Positions 268-31,682 of a stretch of 64,000 nucleotides of DNA are shown here, piece after piece. The notes beneath the pieces are model-generated. The model did not search any database. It worked only from the letters and a program-made list of their open reading frames with translations, and was not told the origin of the DNA. Positions within the stretch are counted from its first letter, which is position 1. Each line of letters opens with the position of its first letter. This DNA is from Isoetes taiwanensis. Lineage: Eukaryota > Streptophyta > Lycopodiopsida > Isoetales > Isoetaceae. The stretch is from contig JAJEKV010000075.1 in NCBI GenBank assembly GCA_021234155.1, forward strand, positions 3,939,720 to 4,003,719, written 5' to 3'. The position numbers and the translations under genes are program-made.

Positions 268-329
268 AGAAATCAACTAATTGGGTTTACGGTATCTCGA
301 ACTCTGTATTTCCGATGTCTTTGGACCTG

Positions 330-10205: not shown

Positions 10206-10890
10206 TCTATCATTGTCTTTGCTTCTTGTTTGCTCATTGCCTCTTGTCTGCTTCTTGTCTGCTTCTTTGCCTCCTTCCCCCTCTTGTCTGCTCCTTGCCT
10301 CCCTGTCTGCTCCACTAATTTCTTGCAAATGGTAACTTTGCAAGAACATCCTCGGCCCAGGCTGATTGAATACACTGCAAAGCGTCGCGCAGAAATCGTG
10401 CACTTTTGATGATTTTTTTTGCAACTTTTGGGAGCATCGATGGCGTCCGCAGTCCAACCCACAGGCTTGCAAGGCAGCTGAGCAACTTCATTATCGATCG
10501 CTATACTCGTCATCTCCCTCCACTGGAGGAGATCAATTTGAGTCAGGCAAGGTTCACTCTAAGTGCTTTCATTGAACCCCCCTCAGATTTAAAGATAGGC
10601 TAGAACAGTTGAAGGACATGCTTTTCCATGGTTTCATGGCCTACTCTCTGGATCAGTATGCGCCTCTGGTCATTCCTACTAGTGAGAAGAATAGGATTTA
10701 TATCCTCATTGAACTTTACAACTTCCATTACAAATCTTTTGTGGATATTGGTAAGCTCCTATTCCGTTCCCTTGACTTCAACATCCCGTGGTTACTGTCT
10801 AAATTCCCCACCTGGGATACAATTCCTTGGGATACACGTGACCTATGGCTACATAGCACACAACACATAATAGGTACATATCACAGGTGA
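10206..10890 (+). pseudogene. Transposon 'YLAHSLDQY' module, diverged copy 1
   Basis: Frames at 10,406-10,603 and 10,609-10,890 together align with the intact 201-residue protein at 25,041-25,646: LARQLSNFIIDRY against LAMELINFILERF, YSLDQYAPLV against HSLDQYISEF, and WDTRDLW against WDTRELW. A frame break near 10,600 and an upstream shift make it non-functional. As in the other two copies, a CT-rich tract (10,206-10,310, repeats of CTTGTCTGCTTC) precedes the coding part. Function unknown. It lies outside the left terminal repeat of the inner element at 11,316, so it should belong to the outer copy. Confidence 0.6.
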
Positions 10891-10899
10891 AGATACTCC

Positions 10900-11300
10900 A
10901 TTGGAATATGTGTATAAACTGGTATAAAGATTTTCATAGAAATTAAGTATATAAGCAAGTGATTTTCGTGTAATTAAGTAACATCTTCATGTAATTAAGT
11001 GATTTTCGTGTAATTAAGTAATTAAGTAATATCTTCTACCATTTTCCTTGTTTTTTTTCATGTGATTGTTCTATTTGTGGTCATATTATTGCAGTAGCCA
11101 CGGTCTTGAAATCGCTTTCGATTACAAATTATTGAAGGGCCTATTTATGCCGTGGCTCACGATCTCTATGAGATCCCGTTTTGTTACCACCACCGAATGG
11201 TATAATACTTCAGCATTATTGGTATTATTCTTCATCATTCTTGGTATTATACTTCAACAGTATTAGTATTATACTTCAACATTATTGGATTCGTAGCTAT
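10900..11300. repeat. AT-rich short repeats
   Basis: GTGATTTTCGTGTAATTAAG is repeated at 10,960-11,030 and GGTATTATACTTCA-type units at 11,215-11,285. No gene is seen here. Confidence 0.6.
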
Positions 11301-11311
11301 AAATTCTTTCA

Positions 11312-11315
11312 GCTT
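11312..11315. other. Candidate target-site duplication, left (GCTT)
   Basis: GCTT directly abuts the left terminal inverted repeat and recurs at 24,751-24,754 directly after the right one. A 4-bp match can occur by chance (about 1 in 256). Confidence 0.5.
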
Positions 11316-11347
11316 CATTAGAGTTTTTTTGAGGTCAAATAAGGGCC
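11316..11347 (+). repeat. Left terminal inverted repeat
   Basis: This 32-bp sequence begins CATTAGAG, has a run of seven Ts, and ends CAAATAAGGGCC. Its reverse complement lies at 24,719-24,750 with one difference (GAGGTC versus GAGATC). Confidence 0.75.
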
Positions 11348-11799
11348 TCCTAAGAATATATTAAGGGGGCCACCACGTAGGATCCCGAACCTAGCTTCCC
11401 CCCTCCATACCTAAATTTCACTCTCCCTAACCTAACTACCTAACCTCCCAAACCTAACCCCCGAACCTAACCCATAATCATTATTTCCTAACGACACGAA
11501 TATTTGATGATTATATATCTAGGATTTTCGTTTTCCCACCTTGAGCTTATGCCATCGAAGCTTCAGCACCATCGATCGAGCTTGCCCTCGCCATCGACCT
11601 TGCCATCGCCATCATCGGCGTAGCGATCTTGCCATCAGCGCCCGGGCAGTTTTGAATTGAATTATGGCGGTTCTTGCCGGCAAATAGAGCGAAATTTTCA
11701 ATTTAAATTGCTTTTTTGGCAAGAATCTTCTAATTCTAATCTCCGCTCGGTTCTCGGTCTTTTTGCAACGTCAATGGCAAAGGTATTTGGTTTCCGAGT

Positions 11800-14215: not shown

Positions 14216-14459
14216 CACTTGCTAAGTTGTTTAGACAAAAACCAGTGGGGAAAAAAAGAGGGCAACTTGGTATAAGTCCGCGCGGTGTTGGCGATCAAGG
14301 GAGTGGAGATCAATGAGATGTAGGCAAGGCAAAGGTTATGTCCGTATTGAGAGCTCTTGATAACGTCTCTACTGTAAAAGAGTTGGTTTATTTATCAGTT
14401 CGATAGTGCTCGATTAATGCGAAATCTTTGTGTTGTAAGTAAATTGGATGCATGTATTG

Positions 14460-14780
14460 CGCCATTGCCCGCGGTCGCGAAATATGGGCTGTAACTAAAA
14501 GCGGATCCATCGTATTTGCACCGTAGCCACCGCATCGAAATAGGCCCTTCAATAATTTGTGGCGAGTCGATTTAAGCACCGTCGGCGGTCTTGAAAATAT
14601 GGCCTCAGAACTAAACTGGACCCACGTATTTCGCACCGTAGCCACGGTGCGAAATAGGCCCTTCAATAATTTGTAACTTCGGTCGATTTAAGCCGTGGCT
14701 CACGGTGTGAAAGAGGCCCTTCAATAATTTGTACACGAGTCAATTTACCGCACCCGTGGCTCACGGTGCGAAATATATCA
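14460..14780. repeat. Palindrome cluster 1 (about six units, ~60-bp period)
   Basis: Units are hyphenated palindromes of the type CACCGTAGCCACGGTGCGAA, with centres near 14,470, 14,525, 14,585, 14,640, 14,698 and 14,760. They are joined by partly shared spacers (AGGCCCTTCAATAATTTGT). The cluster lies between the 3' end of the putative transposase (+) and the 3' end of the YLAHSLDQY module (-). Confidence 0.85.
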
Positions 14781-15002
14781 CCCAATAACTAGAGAATATT
14801 AACATATTAGAGAACATATTAACATATTAGAGAATATTTATAGAACATATTATCACGGTATCATATGAAATATTTATGATAGATAGCAAAGGTTACTAGA
14901 GACCATGGCAGTATGTCCCTAGTAACCTTCCCCTAGGTTCCTAACCCCTTCCCTTCCCCTTTCCCCTCCCTCATGCGGGTCTAACCCATGCATCCGGGTT
15001 AG

Positions 15003-15560
15003 GAGTCAAAGCTCACGCTCCTCCCAAAGTGATTCTTCCCACCGTATGGGGTACCTAGTCATTAGAAAAAGTAATTCCACAGGATGATACTCACGGAAGA
15101 AGAGCGGACCCAACTCCACAAAACCGTTGTACTCGTGGTAGTACACCCTAATAAGGCCATACATCTGTCCCCGGTTAATTTCATGAATGAACTCTGATAT
15201 GTATGCATCCAGAGAGTGTGCTAAATATCCAAAGCCGTAAGAAGAAGAGGCCTCAATTCTTTGTAGCATCTCGTCCGGATAAGGAGGGGTTCAAGAAGTC
15301 CCCTCATTGCGGTCTCCTATAACATTCGGATGGATTAATTTCCATCGGTGGCTCATGACCACAATCAAATCGCTCGAGAATGAAGTTGATCAACTCCATT
15401 GTAAGCTCCTTGGTGGGGCCCCGTGGCGCAACCTCCACTCCAAGAAATGGTCCCATAGCTCATCCATTCCAGGCCGCACAGAATGCCTGGGGCATGCTTG
15501 CAGGCCTTCTGGAGTAGCCCAGGGAGGATTGGGTCCAATCATTTGCACAAGCAAGCAAGG
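15003..15560 (-). pseudogene. Transposon 'YLAHSLDQY' module, copy 2
   Basis: The minus strand reads GPNPPWATPEGLQACPRHSV (near 15,540), then MELINFILERFDCGHEP, then GYLAHSLDAYISEFIHEI (15,006-15,269). It is over 80% alike to the intact copy at 25 kb by eye. A frame change near 15,400 and stops near 15,290 break the reading frame. The CT-rich tract (15,550-15,720, antisense of CTTGCTACTTGATC units) again lies just upstream of the coding part. Confidence 0.65.
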
Positions 15561-15725
15561 AACAAGGAGCAGAGCAAGGAACAAGGAGCAAGAAGCAAGG
15601 AAGAAGACCAAGTAGCAAGGAACAAGGATCAAGATCAAGTAGGAAGAAGCAAGGAACAAGGAAGATCAAGGAGCAAGAAGATCAAGGAACAAGGAAGACC
15701 AAGTAGCAAGAACCAGGTCCATAAC
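15550..15725. repeat. Low-complexity GA/CT-rich tract
   Basis: Units of about 10-14 bases such as AGCAAGGAACAAGGA and AAGATCAAG are present. The same kind of tract precedes all three YLAHSLDQY copies (10.2-10.3, 15.55-15.72 and 24.78-25.05 kb), so it is part of the module, probably its leader. Confidence 0.75.
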
Positions 15726-15732
15726 GTAAACC

Positions 15733-16180
15733 CTACAATAACCTAACGAGATGGCGATCACCTTCGACAGTCGGCTCTTCTGGAGCAACAAAAGCCCTCG
15801 GCTCACAAATAATATCTGTGTCGCAGCCACTCCCCTGCTCTATTTCCTCAGCGGCTACCTGGCTGCAACCAACATGTCCCTCTTCTGTGCGAGGCATTGC
15901 CACATCGCAGTCCTCAATCATGTTCACTTCAGCCCCAACATTGAAGCCAAGATTTGCATTACTTATGCGCAAATGCCGCAGATAATCTGCACGCCTAAAA
16001 GACAAGCCATGGGGATTGGCAAGAATACACCTTTGGCATTGGCAAATGCAATCCCTCACAACAGTGTTGGATTTGCGAAGGCTTGCCCTGAATGATGCCC
16101 ATTTGGACTCTCTATCGTGATCCCACCATGTTGAGTACGGAATCAAGACACCAACTGGATTCTTGGCTTCACACTTCTGG
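15733..16180 (-). CDS. Hypothetical CxCxxC protein, transposase-associated-like
   Basis: The frame of 137 residues (15,733-16,146) continues upstream in frame as NPVGVLIPYSTWWDHDRESK. It then reads a C-x-C-x2-C group (CICQCQRCILANPHG) and RADYLRHLRI. The layout of a Trp-rich start, clustered cysteines and a D-x2-x-H-L motif is like the transposase-associated zinc domain of plant CACTA transposons (Pfam PF13963), but spacing differs and I only suggest this. The C-terminal half is acidic (VAAEEIEQGSGCDTD, EEPTVEG). It lies inside the inner element, upstream of and on the same strand as the YLAHSLDQY module, and could be an earlier exon of that gene. Confidence 0.4.
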
Positions 16181-16439
16181 GCGAAGCAGCTTCAACTGCC
16201 TCTTGCTTGTGGATTGTGGCTTCTTCAAACCTAAACCTCTGTTACTCTTAGGTCATCGTAGCTAGGAGAGATAAGCTTGAGCGCCTCACTCCGTGACACT
16301 TCTAGCTTGCTTGAATTGCGTTCGGTGCATAAGATTGACAAGTGCAAGGTCTTTAATACAAGAAAAAATGCATCGTGCTTTAAACAACTTGCCTACATTA
16401 CCAAGTCGACAGTATGCTCCTTGGAGATGAGGTGCCTGA

Positions 16440-17590
16440 GATAGGAAGAGAAACAATCAATACATGTATTTCTTACTAGAATTTAATTTGAATCATGTAT
16501 TGGTTTCAATGGCCAGTTTTAACAAGTAAAAACAACCAAAGTTGTAAACTATGTAATTCTGAGGGAAAATACAAGAGGTTGCAATACAAGAGGTTGAAGG
16601 AGCGAACCAGCAATTGAACTAATATTATCTGAAAATATTTTAAGTAGCTTCTACTTGATAGGTTTGTACACACCCAATTAGTTAGCCAAGTCCAATTGCC
16701 CCCAGGCAAAGGAAGTAGTCCCTTTTGATCCCTGATGGAACCCCTGTGCCATCTATAATTCTTTACTTCCTATCAAGTTCTAAAGGGCATAAATAACTTC
16801 ACTTAGGGTCCTCCTTCCTTCGCATTCATGCATTCGAGCCTGATATGGTACAGCAATCACGTTTGTCATAAGCACCAAACATTCATGCGGATGTGGAGGT
16901 TCTCTTAGGAGTCTTAACAATTGTTTGCTTGTTGCATAAGTTGTCTAAGATATTATGATTCTTCATACAATCATGTCTTTGATACAACGTTTTCTATGGA
17001 GATTATAACCTGTAAAAAAGGAAGAAAGCACTTACAGCAGAACTCCAGCAAGATTGCCATTTAAACAAGAATAAAGGCCCTTAAGAGATAATCTTTCCAC
17101 CCAATTCATTTTGCAAAAAACCTACATATGCATAATGAAATATCATCCATAAGCATATTGAGAAATCCTCAAGCGAAGTATCTTAAAAAGGAAGTTACAA
17201 TGAGAAAGAATTAGATAGTTAGGCATTACCCACTAATCTAAATCTGAGAAAAGTTAGTGGATAAGGCTACTTGGCAGCAGTTCTACGATTCACGGTAGGC
17301 TGAACAATCCTGATGGGACATGAGCTGTAATTTTCACCATCGTCTAGATAAATCACACTAAGTCTAGACCGAGAAAATAATTTCAGATAAACAAATTAAG
17401 TAGTGCCAAATGGATAGTTAAGCTGTTTCAAATAGGAATTGTCAATTCTATTGCATCCATACTCCTTAGGAAGCTTAGTCAACGATTTAAAGGATTCCTA
17501 TGCAGAAGTATGACAAAGATATTCTGATGCAATTGTTTGGAATTGGGGAGCTGCCAAACTATAACGTCTAGCCACTAGTTTAGAGGATTA
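16440..17590. other. Non-coding AT-rich stretch
   Basis: No supported gene. On the minus strand a short frame near 17,350-17,270 reads SVIYLDDGENYSSCPIRIVQ and then stops soon after. This could be the end of a captured exon but I cannot identify it. Confidence 0.4.
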
Positions 17591-17689
17591 CCATGCAGAG
17601 GAGCTCTGATACCTTCGTGCACATGACTCGGAAGCAAGGTTTTCCCGAGCAAGGTTTTCCCGAGTTTGTGTTTAGGTTTAAGGTGTTAG

Positions 17690-17890
17690 CTGTGGTATTT
17701 TGCTTGATGGCTCCAACAATTACATCTCTAATTCTTAGTGCAAATCGTCTAAGTGCAATAAGTTATCTTGTTTTTCAAAGAACCATTGGATTCTTAGTGC
17801 AAATCGTCTAAGTGTAATAAGTTATCTTGTTTTTCAAAGAACCATTGGATTCTTAGTGCAAATCGTTAGAAAGAACCATTGGATAAGATA
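17690..17890. repeat. 62-bp direct repeat
   Basis: ATTCTTAGTGCAAATCGTCT with AAGT(G)AATAAGTTATCTTG and TTTTTCAAAGAACCATTGG occurs twice in tandem, with a third partial copy. Confidence 0.85.
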
Positions 17891-17989
17891 AATTAGATAC
17901 AATTAAAACCATTGGATGACGTGGATAACTATTGGATCGTCTATAGCGAACCTTAGTACCAACTAGATATAGGCATGGTTTAATGGTGT

Positions 17990-18500
17990 TCCACTAATGA
18001 TATCCAAAATGGGGGGATAATGTTAGGATATTGCGTAGTCTTGCCATTTTATAATGCTTGGGGATTTGTTGCAATGGTCCTATTCCCCATAAACAATTAC
18101 ATCTCAAATTCTTAATGGTCTAAATTATACCAAGATGTAGGAACGGTTTAATGGTGTTCCACTAACGATATCCAAAATGGGGGAATAATGTTAGGATATT
18201 GCATGGTCTTGCCATTTTAATGCTTGGGGATTTGTTGCAATGGTCCTTTCCTCCATAAAGAAATACATCTCACAATTCTTAATGGTTTGTTATGCAAAAA
18301 TGTAGGCGTGGTTTAATGGCCTCAGTGGACGATAAAAAATCATTCTCATTCTCATTCTAACAATATCCAAAATGTTAGGATATTGTTAGGATTTTGCGTC
18401 GTCATATGACATTAATGCTTAGGGATTTGTTGCAGCGGTCCTGCACCCCCTCAAGGAATACAAATCAAATTCTTGATGGTTTTGTTACGCAAAAATAGGC
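17990..18500. repeat. Triplicated block of about 150-180 bp
   Basis: GTTAGGATATTGCGTAGTCT-like sequence plus GCTTGGGGATTTGTTGCAAT and GGTCCT, ending in a '(T)ACATCT...TTCTTAATGGT' segment, occurs at about 18,020, 18,190 and 18,375. Confidence 0.8.
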
Positions 18501-18589
18501 GTTAAGTAATTGAAGTAGTTGAAGTAACTTGTCTTACATGGAATACTAGTATAAGGACATGTGATCGTGCACGTGCATCACATGTAGCA

Positions 18590-19060
18590 AATCAAGTACT
18601 CTGTCCTACCACTATAAAGGCCCGTGATATGGAAGGATAGGACATGTAGAGAATCGAGTATTCTTTCCTACTTCTATAAAGACATGTGACAATAGAAGTA
18701 TTACACATGTCGTAATTCATGTATTCTTTCCTACAATGCCTTAGCAAATAAAGTACTATGTCCTACTACTATAAAGACATGTGACATGGAAGCATACGAC
18801 ATGTAGAGAATCAAGTATTCTTTCCTACTTCTATAAAGACATGTGACAATAGAAGTATTACACATGTCGTAATTCATGTATTCTTTCCTACAATGCTTTA
18901 GTAAATAAAGTACTCTGTCCTACTACTATAAAGACATGTGAATGGAAGCATAGGACATGTAGAGAATCAAATATTCTTTCCTACATCTATAAAGACATGT
19001 GACAATAGAATTATTAGACATGTAGAAATTCAAGTATTCTTTCCTACAGTGGATTGTATT
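18590..19060. repeat. Tandem array with ATAAAGACATGTGA units
   Basis: Units contain ATCAAGTATTCTTTCCTACT, TCTATAAAGACATGTGAC and AATAGAAGTATTA, repeated five to six times with a period near 60 bp and higher-order pairs near 120-180 bp. The inner CACATGT and GACATGT parts are palindromic. Confidence 0.85.
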
Positions 19061-19250
19061 ATAAAATGACATGTCACAATAGAGGAAACTACAAAACAAC
19101 AGTGGATGTTTTAGTCCACTGAAAAAAGAACACCATTATCGAACAAAACCATACCTCCACAAGTCCACATGTAGGATTCTTTGAAAACAGGACATGTAGA
19201 CCTACCAAAACTGATGTTTTCCACAGTGGACCAAAAACCGGGGTGAGTGT
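19060..19250. mobile_element. End of an insertion that breaks the histone fusion copy
   Basis: GTCCACTG(TGG) motifs occur in opposite orientations at about 19,110-19,118 and 19,222-19,230. The histone-like frame (minus strand) stops matching at about 19,240, where this sequence begins. I read it as the right end of a repeat-rich insertion extending left into the tandem arrays. Its left end was not found. Confidence 0.4.
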
Positions 19251-20330
19251 GTCCTCTCAATAATTTCCTGCATCTCAAACCTGACCATTCTAGCGAAGGC
19301 AAGCTTGGGAATCAGAGGCTGGGTGCGTGCCTGCCAGTACCTAATCTCCCTCAAAGCCTGAGTGCCAGGAGGAGCACCCTTCATCTTCTCAGGGCCACCA
19401 TATCTAACACTAGGCTCCCCTTCCTTAGGCTTCCGCTTATTACCAAGCTTATCAGTCTCCTTGCACGCATCTCTCTCGGCTTGTCTCGCACTAGGAACAA
19501 GCCTAGGAGGCTTTTGCCGCTCGGATTTCTTCGGCTGGATTTCAGCTTTTAGGGGCTTCCTAGTACATGTTCCACTCGAACTAGGGTTCCGGGATCAACA
19601 TCTTTGGTCCACTGATGATGATCTTCTTTGGGGCGGCTGATCCTGGCGATCTTCTTTGGACCAGTGATCTTTGATCTTCTTGGGCCCGTCGATCCTGGCG
19701 ATCATCTTTGGACCAGGTGATCTTTGGTCATCTTTGCACTTCCATAGTCTGCGTTCTTCCTCCCCCCACCACTTGCCAAATGTTTGGGAATGCAATAGTG
19801 GTCCCAACGTCCGAGGGCGAGGAGATAGCGATTCATGAGCCCTTTGGGCACCATGGCCTGTCCACCGGCCAAAGCACACGGCCGTGTGTAGAACCCCCTC
19901 CCGTGGTTTCAACCGTAATCCAGACTCATTACACAAGAACTGGAATGGCGTGACTCCGTCTTGGGACATGGATGACATCAACACAGGCCACCTGACGTAT
20001 GACCCGACGGCTTCCTCAATGTCTCGCTCGGGGGGTGGGGAACGCCCGGTCTGCGGCTGTTGGATCGAGTTGTGTCCCATTGCTACCACAATACAGTCAT
20101 CTGGAACTGGAATATTGTGGCAGACAGTGGCATCACGGAAAACTCCTTCCCCAACAACCTTACCAGCGCTCAGCAAGGTGACCCGACTAGGAAGCACGGT
20201 CGGGTTTTCGAAATATTCGTCCACACTATTATTAATAGTGTGGGCGACGATTCCAAGGGTTTGCCCGAGTCTTACGTAAGGACAACCTCCTCCTCTCGTC
20301 CATCTGGCGGCTTGTGATGGGAATAAGCGC
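19203..20330 (-). pseudogene. DUF8039-like/histone H3-like fusion, disrupted copy
   Basis: The first part (20,330-19,900) reads NPTVLPSRVTLLSAGKVVGE, NIPVPDDCIVV and EEAVGSYVRWP. This matches the other fusion gene (PRRVYLFSSGHLVGEG, GVPVPDDCIGI) and the plant CACTA-associated domain I know as DUF8039. Frames are then broken. At about 19,390-19,250 the sequence reads PGTQALREIRYWQARTQP and LIPKLAFARMV, which is helix alpha-N and alpha-1 of histone H3 (PGTVALREIR...). The LIP variant is typical of plant CENH3. The preceding residues are Lys/Arg/Pro-rich, like a histone tail. The alpha-2 and alpha-3 part is absent because an insertion starts near 19,240. The first ATG of the 209-residue frame is at 20,224, but homology continues upstream in frame to about 20,330. 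Confidence 0.65.
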
Positions 20331-20499
20331 CTCGCCCTCGTGATTGGAATAGAAGTCTCCGGCTGCTAGTAATGACCTCATCAACATTCAGGCTTTCGTC
20401 AAAAGCCCTCATTTTGTGGGGATTTGAGCTAAGCGCCTTCCATGGACATGGCCGGTTTTAGCAAAGGACAAGAAATTCAATTAAGCAATATTGTGCGTC

Positions 20500-20835
20500 G
20501 ATCCATAAACCCCTAGGCTGAAAAATATTACGGTAGCCCGCGGTGCGAAATCGGGCGGTCAAAAACTGCCGACATCTGTTTTTAGCACCGTAGCCACGGT
20601 CTTGAAATAGGGCAGTCAAAAGCTGCGATAAACGACTTTTTTTCGCCGTACCGTATACCATCTTGTCGGGCAGTCAAAAATCGACATCTGTTTTTCACGC
20701 CGTAGCCCGCGGTCGCGAAATAGGGCGATCAAAAATTGCCCGACCGCTTTGTTTTACACCGTAGCCCGCGGTCGCGAAAATCGCCCGATCAAAAGCTGGC
20801 GACATCCTGTTTTTTACGCCTTTGTAGCCACCATT
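20500..20835. repeat. Palindrome cluster 2 (six units)
   Basis: Units such as ACCGTAGCCCGCGGTCGCGA are centred near 20,540, 20,592, 20,650, 20,710, 20,768 and 20,825, separated by spacers sharing AAATAGGGC(A/G)(G/A)TCAAAA and GACATCTGTTTTT. It lies between the 5' side of the histone fusion and the 3' side of the 21.0-22.6 kb gene, both on the minus strand. Confidence 0.85.
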
Positions 20836-21054
20836 AAAGAATACCTAACATATACATCTAACAAGGATTTATTGCTCACATTGAATTCTAACAATTAATG
20901 AATATCATAAATGAACATTCATACAAAAGCAATTTAGATCATATGAAAACAATTGATACATTATAGAAAAAGACAATTTATAGAAAAGACATTATATTAA
21001 TACATAAGTTTTTAAGTACATTTCCTTTTCTTGGCATCGAGGAACTGTAGTACC

Positions 21055-22529
21055 CGAATCAAAATCTTCTAAGTCCTCTTCTTTTACTCCCAATTGCATC
21101 TAACGGATACAATATGTCGGGTCCTTCACGTACCCGCAGGGACAAAAGCGAGTGTTTCCTTGTCCGCTCCACCCAAGCCTATAGCTGCTTTTATTTGCAA
21201 GGACATAGTACATTTTGAAGCCCCAGAAGGCGTACATTCGCGATAGCCCTATCTCTTGCTACCACTTTCGATCATAGTTTGAGGCTAGGGGCACGTGGTT
21301 TTGCCGACTAATGTGAGCCTTAAGCTTGAGGGACCTCCTGTACTCGGATGGACTATATTTATTGTGAAACACAATAATTTCCCCTTGTGAAGGTAGCCCA
21401 TATAATGTGCAATCTTGGCGTCCCTACCTAGGGTGACTCTCACGATGCCTTGCCTGAAGTCATCAATAAATAACTCTGCATAAAAGAAACATCAGATTCA
21501 AGAAGAAATAGAAAATGAAACCGGATAAATACCTCTGTTTTGTCCCGATTCGACAACAATTTGGGTTTGTTATTTTGAAAGAGGACTTGCGGCTCCGTTC
21601 TATGAATTGAAGCGGTGTTTGAAGAGCTAGCAGCTTCAAATTTGACATCTTTCAACTTTACTTCATACCACCTTCACTTTTTGCATGACAATTTCAAATG
21701 CATCCTCTGGAGGTATTGAGGATCCATCATAAGTCACAGCCTCCATCATTTGTCTGGGGACATCAGTCTCAAAGTCTATAAGTCCTCCCAGGCCTACAAC
21801 ATGGGCATATATCTGGCCCAATATCTCGTCTTCTCTCAACCCTGTCACTTCAGATATGTCCGGCAGCAACAAGTATGGTTTCCCACCTACATGGATGGGA
21901 TATGCTTCTGATAGCCCCCAAGTAGATAACTTTTTCTCGGAGACCTCCTCTTCCACAACCTCGATCTCCTCATTTTCCAGTACGAGCTTCTCTTCCTCAG
22001 GATCTATCGGCTCCTCTACTGGTGAGGTGGGGCGTTCTGTTTCAGCGACCTGTGCACTTGAAGAAGAACTGGCATCTTTGCTTGGCTTAGTGTAAATCAT
22101 GTATGTGCTGAACATGATATCTAGGCCGAAAAAACTTTCCTTCCCCTCTTGCCTGCACAGTTCTGCAGGTAGTTTCTTCAAGGACCTTCTAATTCGGTCA
22201 TGATCAGGTTTCGGAAACATCTTAAGAAAAGCTTGGATGCTTAGTGAAGGCAAACCCGATCCGCGGGGACATGGTTTCCGCGTCGGGACCAGCTCCAGCC
22301 ATGAAGCTATGAAGGATGCCGCCATATGCATCGATAAACTGTTACACTCTGCCATAATGTCTACGCTCGGGCAAAAATTATTATGCCGCGGTGGTTGCAT
22401 CCACGGCTCCTCTAGCTCCTCCTCGAACTTTTCAGGATGCTTCTGACGAAAATCCCGTTCTTTCTCCACTATTTTGTCATACCATGCGCTAAACAGCTCC
22501 CATGCCTTATCTGACCCGCTATTTGCCAT
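21055..22529 (-). CDS. Transposon accessory protein of unknown function (325-residue frame plus exons)
   Basis: The main frame (22,640-21,663) is open for 325 residues. I favour the internal start MANSGSDKAW at 22,529 because the upstream residues look like untranslated Arg/Ser-rich sequence. It has an amphipathic N-terminal part, a middle segment ending FFGLDIMFSTYMIYTKPS, an acidic linker (EEPIDPEEEKLVLENEEIE), and a C-terminal part YPIHVGGKPYLLLPD...LREDEILGQIYAHVVGLGG. A further exon (about 21,660-21,530) reads FEAASSSNTASIHRTEPQVL and ends LLSNRDKTE at a GTATTT donor. The next begins LFIDDFRQGIVRVTLG after ATGCAG. A possible tail exon reads YDRKW...YAFWGFKMYY and CPCGYVKDPTYC, but with a stop and frame change. 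No known family. It lies between two palindrome clusters. Confidence 0.5.
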
Positions 22530-22654
22530 TCTCGTGGAGCAGCGCCTCGATTTATGACACTTAGAATGTGAGCGCCTTTGTAGCGGCTTGATTTGCAATA
22601 GAGACTTAGAGCGTGGCAACGCAGCGATCGAAAATAACACTTCCTTAATTTATG

Positions 22655-22985
22655 CTATGCACAAATTAAGCACCGTATACTCTGGTCGCGAAAAACAAGA
22701 CTTCGATAAGTTATTCTATTCACAATTTCGCACCGCGTGGCTCACGGTGCAAAAATACCATTCCATTTTTTATTACGTGCACATTTTACACCGCAGGTGG
22801 CTCACGGTCTTGGCAACTTCTTCAATATCTTATTCTATGTATAACCGCGCACCGTGGCTACGGTGCGGAATATACTCTAGTTTTTATGCTATGCACATTT
22901 TTCAAGCACCGTGGCTACGGTGCGAAAATGGCCCTTCCATATTTTATGAGAGCCACAATTTCGCGCAAGTAAGTGCGGTGTGAAA
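22655..22985. repeat. Palindrome cluster 3 (six units)
   Basis: Cores such as GCACCGTGGCTACGGTGCG are centred near 22,678, 22,740, 22,803, 22,860, 22,916 and 22,970. Shared spacer words include TTTTATGCTATGCACA and CTTCCATATTTTAT. It lies between the 5' end of the 325-residue gene and the 3' end of the VRHVYTP gene. Confidence 0.85.
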
Positions 22986-23080
22986 ACACATCCACAATCG
23001 AGTTGTATATACATGGCTACTTTAAGTCTTATATCCCAATGAAAGCAAATGTTTGCAATTAATATACAATAGATCTCCAG

Positions 23081-24365
23081 TTAACAATCACTTATATTTA
23101 TATTAGAAAGATTCATATACGGATATATGACTTTGGGTAGCATGCATGACCCCAATTTATAGCATTCTTCTCTGCGCTTTCCCCACCTTCTCCGCCATCT
23201 ATCATGAAATGGAAGAAGTTTAAGTCTGCTCAAACTCCAATTCTTTGCCGAACATCGAATAGAGACCACTAAGCGCTCGGCTCTCGGACTTTTGAACAGC
23301 TGATTATCCTTATGAATGTTCAAGTCTATGACAACGGAATGAGTGCCATCATTGTCATCTTGTTCGACAGAATCGAGCGATACTTTCTTCCTTCCGCGGA
23401 CATTTAAGCCATCTCCTATACTTAAAAGTGACATCTGAGTTTGCTTCCGAATGCAATATCTGGAACCAAATCGTGTCTCAACTTATCCTCGCATTCATTA
23501 CACATTCAGCTCCATCGTTGAAGTCGAGCACTCCAACCTTCAAGAAATACACTATCTAAAAAACTATCTGTACCCATTTGTTGAATAAAACATCTTCAAG
23601 GTCTTCTTTACATTGTCGGCTCTTGAATATGGCAATGAACAGATCAATTCCTAAATTTATCTTCACATGCCCGCAGACTCCTCCCTTCTCCTTCAATGCC
23701 GTGAACATTTCCTGCGACAACTTACTCCGTGCTAATAAGATAGAAGTGGCACCTAGAGGCCTGCGATTATAAATCGATGTGGTGGGCAATGGAAGCTCGG
23801 TTAGCTTGGATCTTAGGTGGAGAGTATTCATACCTCGAACTACTATATACCCCTTTCTCGAGCTATCTTGGTGTGCCACCTTCGAACAACAAGCAGCCCA
23901 TATCTTGGTGAAAGCAATGGAAAACACTGCTTATCGAGTGTGAAGAGACAGTGTTTTCCACATCAGATATACACAAACCTGAGAGAATAGGAATGAACTG
24001 GATAAGTAACTGAACTAATTTGAATATGAATTGCATAGAATTACATACTCACAATTTGCTTCTAACCGTGGGAAAGTTAAATTAAACTTGCTTATTTTTC
24101 TTTTGCCATATCTGTTTGGAGTGTATACATGCCTTACTTGTACAAATATCTCTTTGCCTGATCGAAAAATCGACCACCAAAGCCTTCCAATGTGCGAAAC
24201 ATCATTTCTCCTGCATCTTTTTGACTTCGCCATTCACCTCGCATTGAGGTTGGAGTGTAACAAAGCTCCCGGTCGATACCACGCAAGCTTTCAAACTCAT
24301 TTCCGAAGCGTGATAGAGCTTATAGCCATCTAGTCACAGAATTCAAATCAGAATGTGGAGCGGAA
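23081..24365 (-). CDS. Transposon 'VRHVYTP' gene, multi-exon, unknown function
   Basis: Three blocks on the minus strand look like exons. Block 1 (24,360-24,015) ends FPRLEANC at a GTGAGT donor that is conserved in the relic at 1-267. Block 2 (23,927-23,556) reads KGYIVVRGMNTLHLRSKLTE and VCGHVKINLGIDLFIAIFKS. Block 3 (23,434-23,081) reads SVVIDLNIHKDNQLF and then a basic stretch (RWRRRWGKRREE). Block 1 has an indel relative to the other copy that shifts the frame. Nothing here is a clear known domain; a resemblance of VQVRHVYTP to BAH-domain strands is weak. The gene is transcribed inward from the right terminal repeat of the inner element. Confidence 0.4.
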
Positions 24366-24718
24366 TCGAAATACTAGGAAAGGCTACGCAATTTTACCTT
24401 GATCGAAGTTTTTTCCGTGGTCGAAACTCCCTTTAAGCGGAGTTGAAGCGGTTCAAAGTGAACCGAAGCTCCCTTGGCGCGGGCAATCGATCTTCGCGCA
24501 AACTCTGTTGTGGAAAACACCTGAGCGGGAATTGAGGGCGGGAGCTAACGGTTATAATTGCCACGTGTGTAATCTGACACCCAAAGCTAGAGGCACGGAT
24601 ATTACCGAAGCTACGTGCAGTCGACACCTGGAAAGGCGAAACCAAGGCTCGGTAAAAAAGTTCTGTACAAGCTCGGCTCCCCATTGGCCGCGAGTTTTTT
24701 GACGTGGCATCGAGTAAG

Positions 24719-24750
24719 GGCCCTTATTTGATCTCAAAAAAACTCTAATG
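24719..24750 (-). repeat. Right terminal inverted repeat
   Basis: On the plus strand it begins GGCCCTTATTTGA and ends CTCTAATG. It is the reverse complement of 11,316-11,347 except for one base. GCTT follows at 24,751-24,754. Confidence 0.75.
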
Positions 24751-24779
24751 GCTTTCACTTCTCACCTTTGTTCCATGTT

Positions 24780-25050
24780 TTCACCTTGCTTTCACTTCTT
24801 GGTCTTTGGTCTTCCTTGTTCCTTGCTACTTGATCTTGATGTTTGTTCTTCGCTACTTCATCTTGTTCCTTGCTCTTGATCTTGCTACTTGATCTTGTTC
24901 CTTGCTTTCTTGCTCCATGATCTTCCTTGTTTTTTGATCTTCTTGCTCCTTGATCTTCCCTGATCCTTACTTCTTGCTACTTGATCTTGATGCTTCTTGC
25001 TACTTGATCTTCGTGCTCCTTGTTCTTTGCTACTTGATCTTTGTGCTCTT
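24780..25050. repeat. CT-rich leader tract of YLAHSLDQY copy 3
   Basis: Irregular units of CTTGCTACTTGATCTT and GCTCCTTG type occur over about 270 bp. They end at the coding start of the module. Confidence 0.75.
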
Positions 25051-25646
25051 TGCAAATGATTGGACCGAATCCTCCCTGTGCCACTCCAGAAGGCCTGCAA
25101 GCATGCCCCAGACATTCTGTGCGGCCTGAAACTGATGAGCTATTTGACCATTTCTTGGAGTGGAGGTTGCACCACAGTCCCACCAAGGAGCTTGCAATGG
25201 AGTTGATCAACTTCATTCTGGAGCGATTTGATTGTGGTCATGAGCCACTGATGGAAATCAATCCATCTGAATGTTATAGGAGGCTTGCAATGAGGGGAAT
25301 TCTTGAACCCCCTCCTTATCTGGACGAGATGCTACAGCAGTTGAGGCCTCTTCTTCGTGCTGGTTATTTAGCACACTCTCTGGATCAATACATATCAGAG
25401 TTTATTCATGAAATTTCTAAGGGACAGATGTATGGCCTTATTAGGGCGTACTACAACGAGTACAACGGTTTTGTGGAGTTGGGTCCGCTCTTCTTCCGTG
25501 AGTATCATCATGTGGAATTACTTTTTCTAATGACTAGGTATCCCATATGGTGGGAAGAATCAGGCTGGGATACGCGTGAGCTCTGGGTTCCTAACCCAAA
25601 TGCGTGGGTTACCCCTCATGAGGGAAGGGAAGGGTTAGAAACCTAG
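25041..25646 (+). CDS. Transposon 'YLAHSLDQY' protein, intact copy
   Basis: The frame encodes 201 residues. Translation could start at MCSLQMIGPNPP or at the second Met (25,056). The protein is mostly alpha-helical by eye: a helix with MELINFILERFDCG (about 54-68), a Pro/Met stretch, then GYLAHSLDQYISEFIHEI (about 107-124), GLIRAYYNEYNGFVELGPLF, and a Trp-rich end (RYPIWWEESGWDTRELW). It has no signal peptide and no transmembrane segment. I do not recognise the family. Two other copies lie at 10.2-10.9 and 15.0-15.56 kb. The aligned copy at 10.2 kb is much more diverged, yet the LDQY and WDTR(E/D)LW motifs persist, which suggests past selection on the protein. Confidence 0.6.
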   Translation: MCSLQMIGPNPPCATPEGLQACPRHSVRPETDELFDHFLEWRLHHSPTKELAMELINFILERFDCGHEPLMEINPSECYRRLAMRGILEPPPYLDEMLQQLRPLLRAGYLAHSLDQYISEFIHEISKGQMYGLIRAYYNEYNGFVELGPLFFREYHHVELLFLMTRYPIWWEESGWDTRELWVPNPNAWVTPHEGREGLET

Positions 25647-25774
25647 GGGAAGGTTACTTTGACATACTGCCGTTACTTGCCGTTCTCTAAATGTTCTCTA
25701 ATATGTTAATATATTCTCTAACATGTTAATATGTTCCCTTTGATCTTGTGGTTCACCTTCTATGGAATGATTCA

Positions 25775-25925
25775 ATTTAAGCCGCGGGCCACCCGCGGTC
25801 GCAAATTGCCTCGCCTCGGTAACTACGAGGAATTTCAAGCCACCGTGGCCACGGTGCGAAAATACCTGCCCTCACAAAGTAATTTATACCCATTTCGCAC
25901 CGTGGCAACGGTGCATTGTAAGTAT
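25775..25925. repeat. Palindrome cluster 4 (three to four units)
   Basis: GCCGCGGGCCACCCGCGGTC, CCACCGTGGCCACGGTGCG and GCACCGTGGCAACGGTGC occur within 150 bp. The cluster separates two convergent genes, YLAHSLDQY (+) and the histone fusion (-). Confidence 0.85.
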
Positions 25926-26006
25926 ACATAGAGAATAGATACAATGAAAATACTTAGCAAGCAAACAAAATATACAACAAAGATCATTTCATTAATATCA
26001 AACACT

Positions 26007-27155
26007 TTACATGCCTCGGAAGTAATTTGTCAAGGCAACATCCTGCCTCATTATTGTTACTCTCTTGGAATGCACAGCACATTTCACACAGTCTTCGAAG
26101 AGCCTGACCATGTGATTCTCAACGGCCTCGTGCAGAGCATCAAGGGCATCTGCAGTGAATCGAGTCACCTCTTCTGGCATTGGAAAACGGTAACCAGCTT
26201 TCCGGTACCTTGCACCATCCCTCTTCATCTTATTGTATCTCTCTTGAACCACCTCCTTACATATTCTAGCCATTGTGAGCTTCGGAAGCACCCACTCCAC
26301 GTGGTTCTGGAAGTGGCGGATTTCCCGAATCCATCTTAACTTTTGCTTAAACGGCTGGCCCTTCTTATTCAGCTTAGGAGGGCCTTTACAGAGAACCTGT
26401 TTCTTCTGCAGCTGCTTAGGCTTAGTCTTCCTCTTATGTCTACTGGATTCCCCGACCTCTAAAGTCTGCTCAACAACAGGAACCACTACTGCATCTGGTA
26501 CTACGGTTTCAGGTACAACCGTCACAGGTACTGCAGTTGCCTCTTGTAGAACGATATTTTCTTCGATTTGAGCTGTCAGAGGGACCTGGATAGGGACACC
26601 CTGATACATAACATTCAGGGGTTCAAATACATTCTGAACAGCAATAGGAACGTTCTGGACAGGCATATCCTCATTCTGAACCGCAACAGGAACATTCTGG
26701 ACATGCACATCCTGATGGTCATCCTCTTGGGGCTTAGCATTCTCATTGTCGGCTCCAAGCAAGTCTGGCCCCTGGTTTATCTCCACCAATCCAACTTCCG
26801 GCACTCTACGAGGAAGTCCGGTGATGTAATCTATCTCATTGGCCAGTACAGAGAATGTGTTAGGAGTTGGCGTCAAAGAAGCCATCAACCTGAGCCACAC
26901 GACGAAGGAATGGAGTGCCTCAAGCAAGTTGTCAGCTCCCATCGAAGGAACAGGCAACTGCGTGTCTGGTGCAACTACCACATCGACGTTAATGCCGATG
27001 CAATCATCAGGCACAGGAACTCCATGACAGATAGCTGTCTGCACAAAGGTTCCTTCTCCGACTAAATGGCCAGAAGAGAACAGGTAAACACGCCTTGGCT
27101 CCGAAGGTATGTCTCTAAAAATCTCCTCTGCGTCATTGGCAACATTCTCGAACTA
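26007..27155 (-). CDS. DUF8039-like domain fused to CENH3-like histone fold
   Basis: The first ATG gives 345 residues (27,044-26,007), but homology to the other copy continues in frame upstream to about 27,155, where an acceptor-like GCCGTAG precedes it. Upstream exons are therefore likely. The N-terminal part reads PRRVYLFSSGHLVGEG, HGVPVPDDCIGI and LLEALHSFVVW, like the DUF8039 domain of plant CACTA-associated proteins. A linker contains VQNVPVAVQN-type repeats. A basic tail (SSRHKRKTKPKQLQKK) leads into a complete H3 fold: alpha-N REIRHFQNHVEWVLPKL; alpha-1 MARICKEVVQE; a long basic loop 1; alpha-2 RFTADALDALHEAVENHM; then LFEDCVKCAVHSKRVTIM and alpha-3 RQDVALTNYF, ending at RGM. EIRHFQ, the Pro in alpha-N, TA(D/E)AL and the non-Pro residue before (K/Q)D resemble plant CENH3 more than H3. 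The frame is open throughout. It lies inside the transposon array between two palindrome clusters. Confidence 0.8.
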
Positions 27156-27469
27156 CGGCGTCCGGACACCTTTGATGGATGTTTTAAACGGAAGACGGTG
27201 CTCTGCTCGATTGTTAGAAGCACCGACATAGTTAGTGGCGCCCCCTCGCTGTCTTCACCATGATGTGTGCGCCGGGCGGCGCCTCTCTCTTCGTTCTTTG
27301 GTTGTTGGGATTGTTAGATCCGCATTACCGCTATTCTCGCGCCATTGTCTCTCGAATCGTAATGCAACAAATGAGTGGACAAGATTGATAAATATGCAAT
27401 GTAATGACTTAGAACAAATATCAAAAGCGGACAACATCGATAACAAAGATAATTATATAAAGAGTACCG

Positions 27470-27655
27470 CTGCTACCGTGCGAAAAACGGCAAAAAGATA
27501 GCCACGGAAAACAAATGCTTTCGCACCGTGGGCCACGGTCGCGAATAGCGCTTAATCTATAACTAATTCCCAACTTCATTTTCGCGGGCCGCGGTGCGAA
27601 ATACTTGTCATTCATCAATTGAATACCAACTAAGTTTAGCACCGCGCCCACGCCG
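27470..27655. repeat. Palindrome cluster 5 (three to four units)
   Basis: CGCACCGTGGGCCACGGTCG, CGCGGGCCGCGGTGCGAAAT and degraded GCACCGCGCCCACGCC units occur here. The cluster lies between the 5' side of the histone fusion and the 3' end of the putative transposase on the same strand. Confidence 0.8.
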
Positions 27656-27962
27656 CCAACCTAACATATTTGAAACATTATAGTTGCACATCATGGTCTA
27701 TAGTTATACATTAATATGAATTTGTTCATATAATTGATTCCCCAGAAGTATATCTTCTACCCTGTCTGATCCTTGTGGATCGCCACTGCCTTAACTTGTC
27801 TGCTGCACTAGAGCTACACCATATCTCGTTTTTTTTTTCCCCGCTCAACTTTTCTCCTCAATATTCTAGCCAACGCCGTGTGTCTTGTTTAGCTTTATCT
27901 TTTTTTCTCTAGCTTGCGCGATAATCCTTCTATAGAACCATTGGCACATCTGTTGCAATGAG

Positions 27963-30900
27963 TTACCACACGAACCTCAATGTTGTGTGAACCTGAAAAA
28001 AAGTATTCTTGGCTTGCTTATGTGACTTCTCCATTCCCTGCGTATTCCATATTCCTAAGCTCCCGTACTCTTTGGCAAACCATAAGCCATGGGCGTGAAG
28101 TATATGAATGTAATGTGTGACATTGCATTCTCCCCATGCTTGTATAAACGACTTCGTGAATTCAGTTACTGCTACTTTGAATTCATCTAACTTTCCACCC
28201 ACCATTTTCTTCTCTGCCATCAAAGTTACCAGACTGCTCAGATTCTGCCACGCTTTAATTTTCTTTAGTTTTGCCCTCCCACGTGAAGTACGGTCCTTAT
28301 ACCCCTCCCACTTTCCAGTTGGCAATGATCCATTCTTACGTAATTTAGTACAAGGCAGAAATCTTTTCGCTTTCACCCCACCCATGGATGGTTTACAAGG
28401 AACCTTGCCTCCCTTCTTAGGATCTTGCAAGATTTTATAGTCACCACCAAAGATCAGAAAGCACGTTCTCAACATCTTTCATACACTTTTCTCTGGTTGA
28501 TTGTGGAGACTTATTCCAAGCAAAAAGAATGCTCATGTACACCATCTTATCCACTATTCTTAGAAAGGCATGGAGAGTGCAAATATGTACTCTCTTCACA
28601 GGAATTGCAAGTATGGGGATCAAAGTTTTGTCCTCCTTCTCACGCGTTGGTTCAGCATCCTGGTCACATTCGAGAGTACTCATTCCCTTCCCCTTATCAT
28701 CTACCCTAGCATACAAACAATTTAAGGACATGCGTGGGTAGTCTTACCGTAACCATGTTTCATGTTATACATGCACTTGATGGTCTTTAGATCAGCAGAC
28801 CAAATGCTATTCAACCTCGTAATCTCCTACAAAATGGTAGCCGGGAACCCCAAGCTTCTCTCCACTCCATGAGCAGCAATAATAGTAGGAATAGGTGTCT
28901 GCTGAAAGACCCAATTAGAAGAACACCATGATTTTCTTCCCAGAAAAAATATCCCTATCCACCAAATATGGTCCTCTGATTGAACAGAGAACTTCCCTTC
29001 CTCATTATCAGAATTTGACAACGCCCTGTTCATTAATGTCAAAGAAACCCTCTCATATTTCTCACCTTTGATCAGTTCCATCTCATCCAACTTTATAGCA
29101 ATTTGGAGTTTCCCTCCACATTCTTCCACTTTCATATCATAGAAGCGAACTAACAGAAGAAGCATTTTAGAGAGATCCATCCAACAATTATTCTTCTCAT
29201 TAAGAACAAATAGATCATTTCCGGAGCCACCCTTCTTCTTACTTTTCCCAGTGATTAGTGATCCCAAGTGCACGGATGTGGTGATCTGGTACATCTCTCC
29301 CAAATGTTCGATGTACTTCGCATTCCTCTTTGTTCCTTGCTTTGCTCGACATAACCGAAGTCTTGGCAGTATGGTCTTCGTAATACCCTGTTGCTTGATA
29401 CCATCCTGCAAACATCTAAAGAGAGCAATGTAAGCTTGTCGACTGATACCCACATTGTCACATAATTCTTGCATGTTGGGCAAAAGTATGCTGGTGGGTA
29501 TCAAATAAACGCCATGATCAAAAGACACCAAAGACCCAAAGACTTTCCAGCACTTTTTTTTTTTTTGTTTTTCATAATCGGCCATGCAATTCGATCATAC
29601 ATGCAAAATTTCAGGGCCTAATTTGGGATATTGAGTAAGCAATTAGAGAAAACCCATTTCTGCAAAGAATTTTGGTAAAAAGCAAACAAAATTTCTTAAT
29701 TCAGCCCAAATTAAGCTAAATTAGATGGGGCTTTTCAGATTTTCATAATCGGCCATGCACCCATATCCTACGTGCAAAATTTCAGAACCTAATTTGGGAT
29801 ATTGTGTGAGCAATTAGAGAAAAACCATTGCTGCAGCAGTTTTGGTACAGTGAAAAATTTTTTAATTCAGCCCAAATTAAGCTAAATCAGCTGGGGCTTT
29901 TTAGATTTTCATAATCGGCCATGCACCCATATCCTACATGCAAAATTTCAGAACCTAATTTGGGATATTGAGTGAAAAATTAAAGAAAAACCATTCTTGA
30001 AACAGGTTTTTTGTAAAACAGTGAGAAATCTCTTAAGTCAGCCCAATTTAAGCAAAATTAGATGGGGCTTTTAGGCTGAATATGGTCGAAATGACAATCC
30101 TACCTTGGTGGATAAGTTTTATGAAAAGATATGATGGATTGAGCAACTAATTGAAGATTCACATGCCAATTTGGAGTTTGGGTCATTTCTGCACACTAAT
30201 CAGACTCCAATCTAATGAAATCGATGCTAATCTGTTGAAAAATTCAAGCAATGTGGAACGATTCTTGGCTGAAGAATCATGAAGGGTGTAAAAAAACGAA
30301 CCCACGAGCACCCACCAGCACCCAAAAAAAAGCAGGAAGCAGGGGTGCTAAAAGCATGCGTCCGGACGCGTGCTTTTGCACCCCACCAGCATACTTTTGC
30401 CCTGCTATCAGCACTTTGACACTTTCCCAATTCAGTAAGCACCTGTTCAACAACAGCTTTTCTTAAATGGTTAGCTCCAGGAAGCTTCAACATATCTATA
30501 ACATCATAATTAGTTACAAGCTTTTTCAACAAACTAGCCATATTACAAGGTTTTCTCTTCTTCTTTTCAGCCATAGTAGGATCCATCAGATTTTTAATAG
30601 CGTGGATTCTTCTTCTAGAGCCCCCACCACTAGGGGCAAGTATACTTAGGGCCTTCAGTTCTTTTTTTCTCTCCCTCATGCCCAGTGGTGTCTTTTTCAG
30701 TCTTTTTGCAGTTTGTCATTGTCCTCAGAGCATCTCTTCAATCCTTGTTTAAGTGACTCCACCTCCATAAGCAACCTTTGATTGGAAGCTTGCAGTTCTT
30801 CTGTATTCTTAGACCCGTTGGTTAAGAAATAGTTACAATTGTTGGAGGTAATTACAATTGTGCTACCATATTGCAATGCACTCCACACAATTGATTGTAC

Positions 30901-31290
30901 ATTGTTCTCAAATGCACATCGAATTACTTGAAATATTATTGCAATAGCCAAGCGCACCTTGATTACCCTTACGGGCAAAATGAATAAGCCCATGGAGAAT
31001 GAAATTCGTGCTGTCTTACGGTGATCGGATCGATGGGATACAGCTTCCCCACGCCCCGAGAGATCAATATTCATTGCACCGAAGCTCGAAGAGCATTCTC
31101 ATCGACTGTTCCTTCCGATTATATTGATTTTTGTAGGGCAAAAGCGGTTCTTGGCACCTCCACACCAAATTGGCCTTTCAATTTTACGTATTCAAAAAGA
31201 ATTACTCATTGTCATTGCCCGAAATTAATAGAACAAGTTACCTCCGCCATAGATCGAATTCAGAGTCGCTATGATCGCTTTCCGAAGCTC
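27963..31290 (-). pseudogene. Putative transposase gene, outer copy
   Basis: Segments in transcript order are: an N-terminal exon near 31,290-30,700 with a coiled coil (EELQASNQRLLMEVESLKQG); MRERKKELKALSIL...KKLVTNYDVIDMLKLPG (30,679-30,440); a 252-residue frame (29,585-28,827) with ELCDNVGISRQAYIALFRCL, LVRFYDMKVEECGGKL and EDHIWWIGIFF; a DLKTIKCMYN...KTTHACP stretch (28,790-28,735); VKRVHICTLHAFLRIVDKMV (near 28,570); and the 170-residue frame (28,475-27,963) with ILHAHGLWFAKEYGSLGIW and GMEKSHKQAK. About 0.8 kb of tandem repeat (29.6-30.4 kb) separates two coding blocks that are contiguous in the inner copy, so it is an intron or insertion. Proposed role: DDE-type transposase, by motif order only. 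Some frames are long and clean, but breaks exist. Confidence 0.55.
29570..30090. repeat. Triplicated ~170-bp repeat in the transposase gene
   Basis: TTTTCATAATCGGCCATGCA, then a CAT-rich word and GCAAAATTTCAG(A/G)(A/G)CCTAATT, ending with CAGCCCAAATTAAGC, occurs at about 29,570, 29,740 and 29,910. Confidence 0.85.
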
Positions 31291-31649
31291 CACAAACCGT
31301 GACGAAATTGATGCAATTCTTCGCCAAAAATACGAAGGAAAACTAGAGAATTCCTTCGGTTTGGGCGCAGGATTGACATCAAAACTAAATTGAAATGCCC
31401 TCCAAAGCTTTGGCCCAATTGAGGCATTCTTGAGGTGTCATTCCGGCTACTCCTTGTAGCTTCGGTTGATGGGAAGGTGGGGGAGGAGGGAGTTTAGGCG
31501 TAATGAGTAAAACAACAAGTAATAATGACGTTTACCAGGTTCCGGTTGCTCGGTATCGAGGTTCTGTTAAGGTTCGTGGGGGCTTTTTGCCCATACCTGC
31601 AGGTTCGGGTACCAACTAAAATCCAAATTTGGGAAGGGCTTACAAGGGC

Positions 31650-31682
31650 GTTAATAGACTCCACCAAACCTCTAATGCCATG
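31650..31682 (-). repeat. Diverged terminal inverted repeat of the outer copy
   Basis: The 33 bases ending CCTCTAATG match the right terminal repeat of the inner element at about 22 of 33 positions by eye, in the same orientation relative to an adjacent transposase gene (-). This would be the end of the outer transposon copy. No target duplication can be tested because the other end is outside the window. Confidence 0.4.

Follow-up and report, generated by a model that had tools for sequence, protein, structure and literature searches.

The window, a 64,000-nucleotide stretch of the Isoetes taiwanensis genome, contains a gene in which a transposon-type N-terminal domain, a repetitive linker and a basic tail are followed by a histone H3 fold (Table 1). 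That the feature is a mobile-element gene with an H3 fold, as a sequence-only reading of the window had proposed, is strongly supported by the Pfam match, the copy number, the shared termini and the presence of the fusion in the fetched copies. The gene belongs to an element termed family 1, into which a related element (family 2) carrying a second, broken fusion has been inserted.

Table 1. Features of the two elements and their H3 fusions in the window
Feature	Position	Strand	Remarks
Main part of the family-1 element	24751..31677	-	5′ terminus CATTAGAG at 31677
Same element, beyond the nested insertion	9890..11315	-	91.5% to the C1039 copy
Same element, further piece at the window edge	1..402	-	94.6% to element positions 11214-11621 (of 12070) in the C1039 copy
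Transposase-like ORFs, family-1 element	27963..29594	-	Three frames; homologues in the nested element at 12644-14125 (+)
DUF8039-like/H3 fusion gene, window copy	26007..27152	-	Open for 381 codons between stops; N-terminal portion lies out of frame
Transposon-type N-terminal domain (DUF8039-like)	26823..27152	-	Common to the second window copy; no Pfam match above cut-off
Repetitive linker	26448..26822	-	TRF repeat 26629-26713
Basic tail	26334..26447	-	No H3 K4, K9 or K27 site discernible by eye
H3 histone fold, alphaN to alpha3	26013..26333	-	Pfam PF00125 3.4e-18; PDB H3 1.6e-13
Loop 1, insert of ~20 residues	26166..26240	-	Missing in host H3; from alignments
Gene 3 ORF, 202 codons	25038..25646	+	Homologues 14961-15548 (-), 10451-10851 (+)
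Nested related element, family 2	11316..24750	.	13,435 bp; ends CATTAGAGTTTTTTTGAG...; target-site duplication absent
Transposase-like ORFs, nested element	12644..14125	+	With stops; homology to family-1 27963..29594
Gene-5-type ORF, nested element, 328 codons	21663..22649	-	Corresponds to C1039 element 8963-10083
Second DUF8039-like domain, nested element	19925..20242	-	Similarity to the window fusion
H3 alphaN-alpha1, second copy	19268..19405	-	Fold broken off after alpha1

The single open frame of the earlier reading is present (26007-27152, minus strand, 381 codons from stop to stop), and its repetitive linker corresponds to a TRF repeat at 26629-26713. No start codon precedes the conserved part in the window frame, whereas the open copy L021 continues in frame for 68 further N-terminal residues up to a methionine, so the window copy is damaged; its element is additionally split by the nested one. 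The name DUF8039 is not backed by profile searches: in the Pfam copy searched, no DUF8039 model was matched, either by the whole ORF (E ≤ 1) or by the N-terminal part (E ≤ 10). "DUF8039-like" is accordingly a label for a domain that recurs in the window at 19595-20365 (36% identity over 107 aligned columns, E = 1e-16).

The C-terminal part (residues 240-375) matches the Pfam Histone profile (PF00125, 3.4e-18) with 66.5 bits against a gathering cut-off of 26.4, a match that the reading had anticipated in proposing an HMM search. Among solved structures in the PDB an H3 chain scores best, with 1.6e-13 for the whole ORF and 6.7e-15 for the H3 part alone, and the best 60 of 185 PDB matches are all named H3, placing the fold with H3 and not with H4, H2A or H2B. 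Because loop 1 carries about 20 inserted residues, the match is divided into two pieces, in the PDB alignment alphaN-alpha1 (242-304) and alpha2-L2-alpha3 (330-380); the full H3 fold described earlier is confirmed, and the insert had been missing from that description. A reading of the alignment by eye indicates that the window copy keeps, in H3 numbering, C110, H113, K115, R116, T118, D123 and L126. Since the H3-H3′ contact residues and loop L2 are retained in this copy, pairing of its protein with H4 would be plausible. The nearest database protein (P0001), a 138-residue H3-like sequence and the sole protein found in a set of 5.8 billion sequences (one of nine candidates), is 38% identical over 106 aligned columns, and no relative of the whole fusion was found at E ≤ 1 among the best 8,000 candidates.

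The fusion is one gene of a multi-gene DNA transposon of about 12 kb with inverted CATTAGAG ends. Ten of 20 fetched copies reach the 5′ side, and all of these begin at the base of window position 31677 with unrelated flanks; the terminus is intact in nine and lacks its first three bases in L014. The far terminus of the window element falls outside the window. Four copies were traced downstream: two end in CTCTAATG at a matching point and are thus 12,070 and 12,220 bp long, while the other two diverge from these before that point. Read by eye in the orientation of the H3, the gene order is transposase-like ORFs (+), H3 fusion (+) and four ORFs on the opposite strand. A transposase role for the first of these is suggested by their position and a resemblance; no Pfam cut-off was reached by them, and DUF4322 appeared below threshold only. 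Tandem arrays occur inside the elements, with 166-bp units at 29561-30072 and 157-bp units at 18585-19054. Neither Rfam nor tRNA scanning of the window gave a match.

The nested element has its own CATTAGAG ends and breaks the family-1 element at 24751/11315. Among the 20 fetched copies, 11 run uninterrupted over this junction (GTGAAAGCAAGCTG) and a twelfth (L015) is one base off, so the nested insertion duplicated nothing; the string is absent from the other eight. No target-site duplication is visible in any of the three insertions with both ends (two full elements and the nested one), the empty site being known for the nested element. CACTA (EnSpm) transposons have CACTA/CACTG termini and a 3-bp target duplication, and membership in that group is ruled out by the CATTAGAG termini and the absent duplication in all three insertions. 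Spy (PHIS) transposons are likewise not known to make a target-site duplication, a likeness shared by the family-1 and family-2 elements in these three insertions.

Compared with family 1, the H3 fusion of the nested element lies on the opposite strand and at a different place. The fusion query matches 20239-19265 (minus strand) as the N-terminal domain, then a stop, then alphaN-alpha1 (...PGTQALREIRYWQARTQPLIPKLAFARMVR...). This second H3 is matched by P0001 (phmmer, 1.1e-8 among 1,663 window ORFs) and by PDB H3 (9.3e-6), while its Pfam match is under the cut-off (1.2e-4, 22.7 bits), with alphaN-alpha1 alone left; a complete relative (L052) matches Histone at 3.1e-18 and again has the loop-1 insert. 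The 157-bp array lies downstream of the cut-off H3. Elsewhere in the window, a chromodomain Ty3-type pol (35734-37995, minus strand) is flanked by repeats of about 1 kb (34808-35869 and 42914-43972; 96-98% complementary) that are inverted, unlike LTRs, and a frame at 55347-55874 (minus strand), with no Pfam match above cut-off, presumably resembles the C-terminal end of the plant NC2alpha/DRAP1 corepressor.

Across the genome sequence (1,658,258,908 bases, 1,110 contigs), the 146-residue H3 part of this DUF8039-type fusion, termed class A, has at least 151 matches (the best 150 of 6,037 candidates were scored), some of which are pieces of one copy, and 146 H3 places from these matches are spread across 83 contigs. 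Both parts of the fusion are present in all 20 copies fetched with ten-kb flanks, several with frame breaks, the 20 having been chosen non-randomly from the better, more open H3 matches. From the opposite end of the gene, 84 DUF8039-like places were taken from 152 matches: at least 49 of 60 close places (48% identity or more, the type of family 1) are followed on their own strand by an H3 match at 517-1637 bp, as are at least 8 of 24 distant places (about 34-47% identity) at 786-893 bp, both counts being lower bounds since the H3 partners came from the list of at least 151 matches. An assembly artefact, which the reading had named as grounds for abandoning its claim, and chance are ruled out by this copy number over many contigs and by the 20 copies with both parts. 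A one-off capture of H3 is ruled out by the second window copy and the other H3-bearing classes. A histone carried by a virus was likewise rejected, the element having inverted repeats in a plant-sized assembly, and viral contigs containing no relative of the fusion, of gene 3 or of the class B domain.

Several kinds of repeat-borne H3 fusion are present in this genome and number in the hundreds, with at least two further H3-bearing repeat groups beside class A. P0001 has 15 genome matches at 68% identity followed by at least 135 at 56-70%, with frames of up to 567 codons. Both of the 68% matches that were fetched (L043, L044) are canonical H3. In 10 of 10 copies fetched with upstream sequence, a near-canonical H3 core is preceded by an N-domain of about 270 residues without known identity; these repeat-borne genes (L033-L042) fall into sub-kinds B, C and D, homologous in the N-domain. 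The class B-D cores compared (six sequences) are 85-88% identical to host H3, and an ARKS-like motif ahead of the core in class C is not conserved. Two copies of this type share a 5.24-kb unit with differing flanks and a second gene, the C-terminal part of which resembles a class A gene, gene 5 of the C1039 element (31% identity, E = 3e-7); the gene-5 counterpart in the nested element was assigned by eye and by short DNA matches. In the protein database, the best 120 of 4,379 matches to a class B query cover 21-36% of it, a coverage that would fit matches to the H3 end alone, and proteins named CSE4/CENH3 among them are 75-84% identical to the H3 part of the query and were omitted as CENH3 references.

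Class E was found through an H3-like relic in L027 and has at least 150 genome matches at 77-100%. Two fetched members start with MARTKQTAR and then K (L058) or M (L057), the tail being followed by 320 and 286 mostly charged residues, respectively, and by an H3 fold at the end (Histone, 1.2e-21 and 2.1e-18). The tails of L057 and L058 are separated by seven silent changes and one amino-acid change, K9M, a form of H3 that inhibits H3K9 methylation. An exact-peptide search of the genome found MARTKQTARK 1,051 times, host H3 genes included, and MARTKQTARM 80 times, against zero for reversed-pattern controls, in a search blind to tails with other changes. Most full H3 tails thus counted carry K9 rather than K9M, and the 1,051 starts far exceed the 15 canonical-type H3 matches that head the P0001 list; the one fetched K9 start (L059) belongs to a gene in decay. 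By an eye count, the 80 K9M starts (for example G000:C907:46752587-46752616) are spelled in roughly two dozen synonymous ways, and at least 18 of them lie 741-1040 bp upstream of a class E H3 match (84 of the at least 150 class E places used).

Between subfamilies the H3 helices are constrained, with dN/dS of 0.20 (L028) and 0.17 (L027) against nine open family-1 copies (dS about 0.7), L028 and L027 being 70%-type copies of another subfamily than the family-1 set. In the same two comparisons the basic tail has values of 0.18 and 0.13, the N-terminal domain 0.33 and 0.35, the linker 0.88 and 0.52, and the loop insert 0.64 and 0.74. Comparisons inside family 1 give near-neutral values (0.65 for the H3 helices and 1.11 for the DUF8039-like domain), with 1.52 for the whole H3 core when loop and helices are mixed, and L027 against L028 gives 0.68 for the helices. 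The comparison of dN/dS across copies that had been suggested thus returned constraint between subfamilies but near neutrality within family 1. Because of the near-neutral values within family 1 and between L027 and L028, most family-1 copies, the window copy among them, look dead or decaying, and the constraint would reflect an active past. The class B/C cores have dN/dS of 0.01-0.05 in 7 of 14 pairs with unsaturated dS.

Loop 1 has a different record. On a tree of 19 family-1 copies without L027 and L028, the loop insert has 40 amino-acid changes and 3 silent ones (loop 1 N/S, 4.65 per site), of which 24 and 1 fall on inner branches, compared with linker counts of 134 and 51 (Fisher p 0.003); these are parsimony counts on a gene tree open to disturbance by conversion among copies, and the difference from alpha2-alpha3 is not significant (p 0.11). 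The loop-1 changes would be consistent with adaptive change.

The histone had also been described as CENH3-like, a claim on which the evidence is divided. The window copy shares with plant CENH3s a Pro for Arg-63, the motif T-A-D/E-A-L (T-A-D-A-L in the window) and a longer loop 1; its loop-1 insert is far longer than theirs, its N-tail is divergent, and L028 lacks the Pro. Identity of the class A cores is 37-48% with host H3 and 33-48% with the three plant CENH3s compared, so that CENH3 is no closer than the host protein. The phylogeny that had been suggested is similarly divided: the best tree sets classes A and E with plant CENH3 apart from H3, CENP-A and classes B-D, but at a support of 83/82 that is below the 95/80 mark of the tool. 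The pairing of class A with CENH3 alone is absent from the best tree and is neither shown nor rejected (p-AU 0.10), the corresponding values being 0.08 for class A with host H3 and 0.13 for class A with classes B-D. No host CENH3 was met in the genome searches for H3. A CENH3 ancestry of class A may be weakly favoured over the others.

The best explanation, given slightly less than an even chance, is that transposon-encoded histone mimics act against silencing. The fusion protein would use the H3 dimer and L2 residues that it retains to pair with host H4 and would enter nucleosomes or, by another route, compete for H3 chaperones and modifying enzymes. As read from the sequences, the tail bearing K4, K9 and K27 is lost or replaced in classes A-D, and class E keeps the first ten residues. 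In classes A-D, transposon domains in place of the tail would thus yield nucleosomes that lack H3K9 and H3K27 silencing substrates and display the transposon domain. The retained tail of class E would mimic the K4 and K9 substrates, its K9M form possibly inhibiting H3K9 methylation; K9 mimicry does not apply to class A, because no recognisable modifiable tail is kept there. The net outcome would be an element shielded from heterochromatic silencing, and a second benefit may be that chromatin of the element is marked for the transposition machinery. A broader proposal is possible but rather doubtful, namely that several mobile-element lineages each run on a self-encoded H3 and are in an arms race over the methylation of H3K9. 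As many as a thousand element genes would then start with the exact H3 tail, some as natural K9M inhibitors, and others would swap the tail and evolve loop 1 adaptively.

Other roles for an H3 fusion can draw on the same evidence. The H3 part might serve to tether the element at target sites, lodging the transposon protein in nucleosomes where the DUF8039-like domain would recruit the transposition complex, perhaps in centromeric or otherwise special chromatin. Such tethering would suit a fused domain standing where the tail would be, a loop 1 (the targeting part of CENH3) that is enlarged and rich in amino-acid changes, and a tree leaning weakly toward the CENH3 side; it is unlikely, however, given 146 H3 places scattered over 83 contigs, which offer no positional support, and a CENH3 ancestry that is weakly favoured at most. 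A centromere parasite derived from CENH3, in which a CENH3 relative would bias the inheritance of the element itself, is more improbable still; neither centromere targeting nor biased inheritance, both raised by the sequence-only reading, gained support from the sequences. The window copy's Pro-63, T-A-D-A-L motif and longer loop 1, the grouping of plant CENH3 with classes A and E in the best tree (83/82) and the loop-1 N/S of 4.65 per site are set against an identity to host H3 (37-48%) that is not lower than to CENH3 (33-48%), the position of class A with CENH3 alone outside the best tree (p-AU 0.10, with long branches), the Pro-less L028 and the failure to find a host CENH3.

A fusion that does nothing for the element, captured long ago and copied as a passive passenger, would account for the within-family dN/dS near 1 and the many copies with stops, and gene capture is a known theme among plant transposons (PMC13317346, a 2026 review). 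It is disfavoured because of the constraint between subfamilies (dN/dS 0.17-0.20 and 0.01-0.05), and the presence of the fusion in every one of the 20 fetched copies, its occurrence in two element families and the several H3-bearing families in one genome also speak against it, leaving it little probability. A protein acting as a decoy only, which would titrate histone chaperones or H3 modifiers off chromatin with no entry into nucleosomes, could be reconciled with the large class A loop-1 insert and diverged C-terminal helix, features that could disfavour nucleosomes, and with the exact H3 tail of class E, K9M included. The retention of C110, H113, K115, R116, T118, D123 and L126 in the window copy points the other way, and such a decoy is improbable.

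If transposons do deploy their own H3 variants against silencing, chromatin itself would be a weapon in the conflict between host and transposon. Natural, evolution-tested tail-swap and K9M histones would then be at hand for dissecting plant silencing, and the extreme H3-like gene count in one genome would be accounted for. The counts call for caution in annotating H3 or CENH3 genes in lycophytes. The main text of the Isoetes taiwanensis genome paper (1658.30 Mb, 204 scaffolds, 909 contigs; PMC8566536) does not contain the word histone, nor does that of the 2026 review on gene capture by plant transposons (PMC13317346). The statement of the sequence-only reading that no transposon with such a fusion had been described agrees with a literature search over titles and the starts of abstracts, with subscription papers largely outside its scope, in which no transposon with an intact histone gene was found; the nearest cases are the Culex fragments, the viral histones and the VANC proteins described below, and the most direct query returned the Culex paper alone.

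Compared with H3 and CENH3 themselves (PF00125), the window fusion has the same alphaN-alpha1-L1-alpha2-L2-alpha3 order, with REIRHFQ, RF, KRVTIM and the D and L of alpha3, and it differs in being transposon-borne at high copy, in having its tail swapped for a transposon domain, in its loop-1 insert of about 20 residues and in its 37-48% identity to host H3. Histone folds are likewise carried by other selfish elements, sometimes at the C-terminus of a long unrelated protein: viral examples include the bracovirus H4 and the NCLDV doublets, and the last 200 of the 1111 residues of nudivirus Orf1 form an H4-H3-like doublet (PMC9145170). The Isoetes case differs from those described there in being a plant DNA transposon, with H3 only, in many copies and with several unrelated N-terminal parts. 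Pieces of histone genes also lie inside Helentron-Cq-32A of Culex, where H4 and H15 gene fragments with a premature stop, a frameshift and indels are reported in eight copies (PMC4067079), whereas the Isoetes genes are open and show constraint between families. As an element-encoded protein countering host silencing, a known analogue would be the VANC proteins of Arabidopsis VANDAL elements, which are transposon-encoded, sequence-specific anti-silencing factors; their abstracts mention no histone fold, in contrast to the Isoetes fusion. The pairing of a DNA transposon with an epigenetic accessory gene is likewise found in the fungal DNA transposons that are reported to encode TET/JBP dioxygenases (PMC12730594), the accessory protein there being an enzyme acting on methylcytosine and, in Isoetes, a histone.
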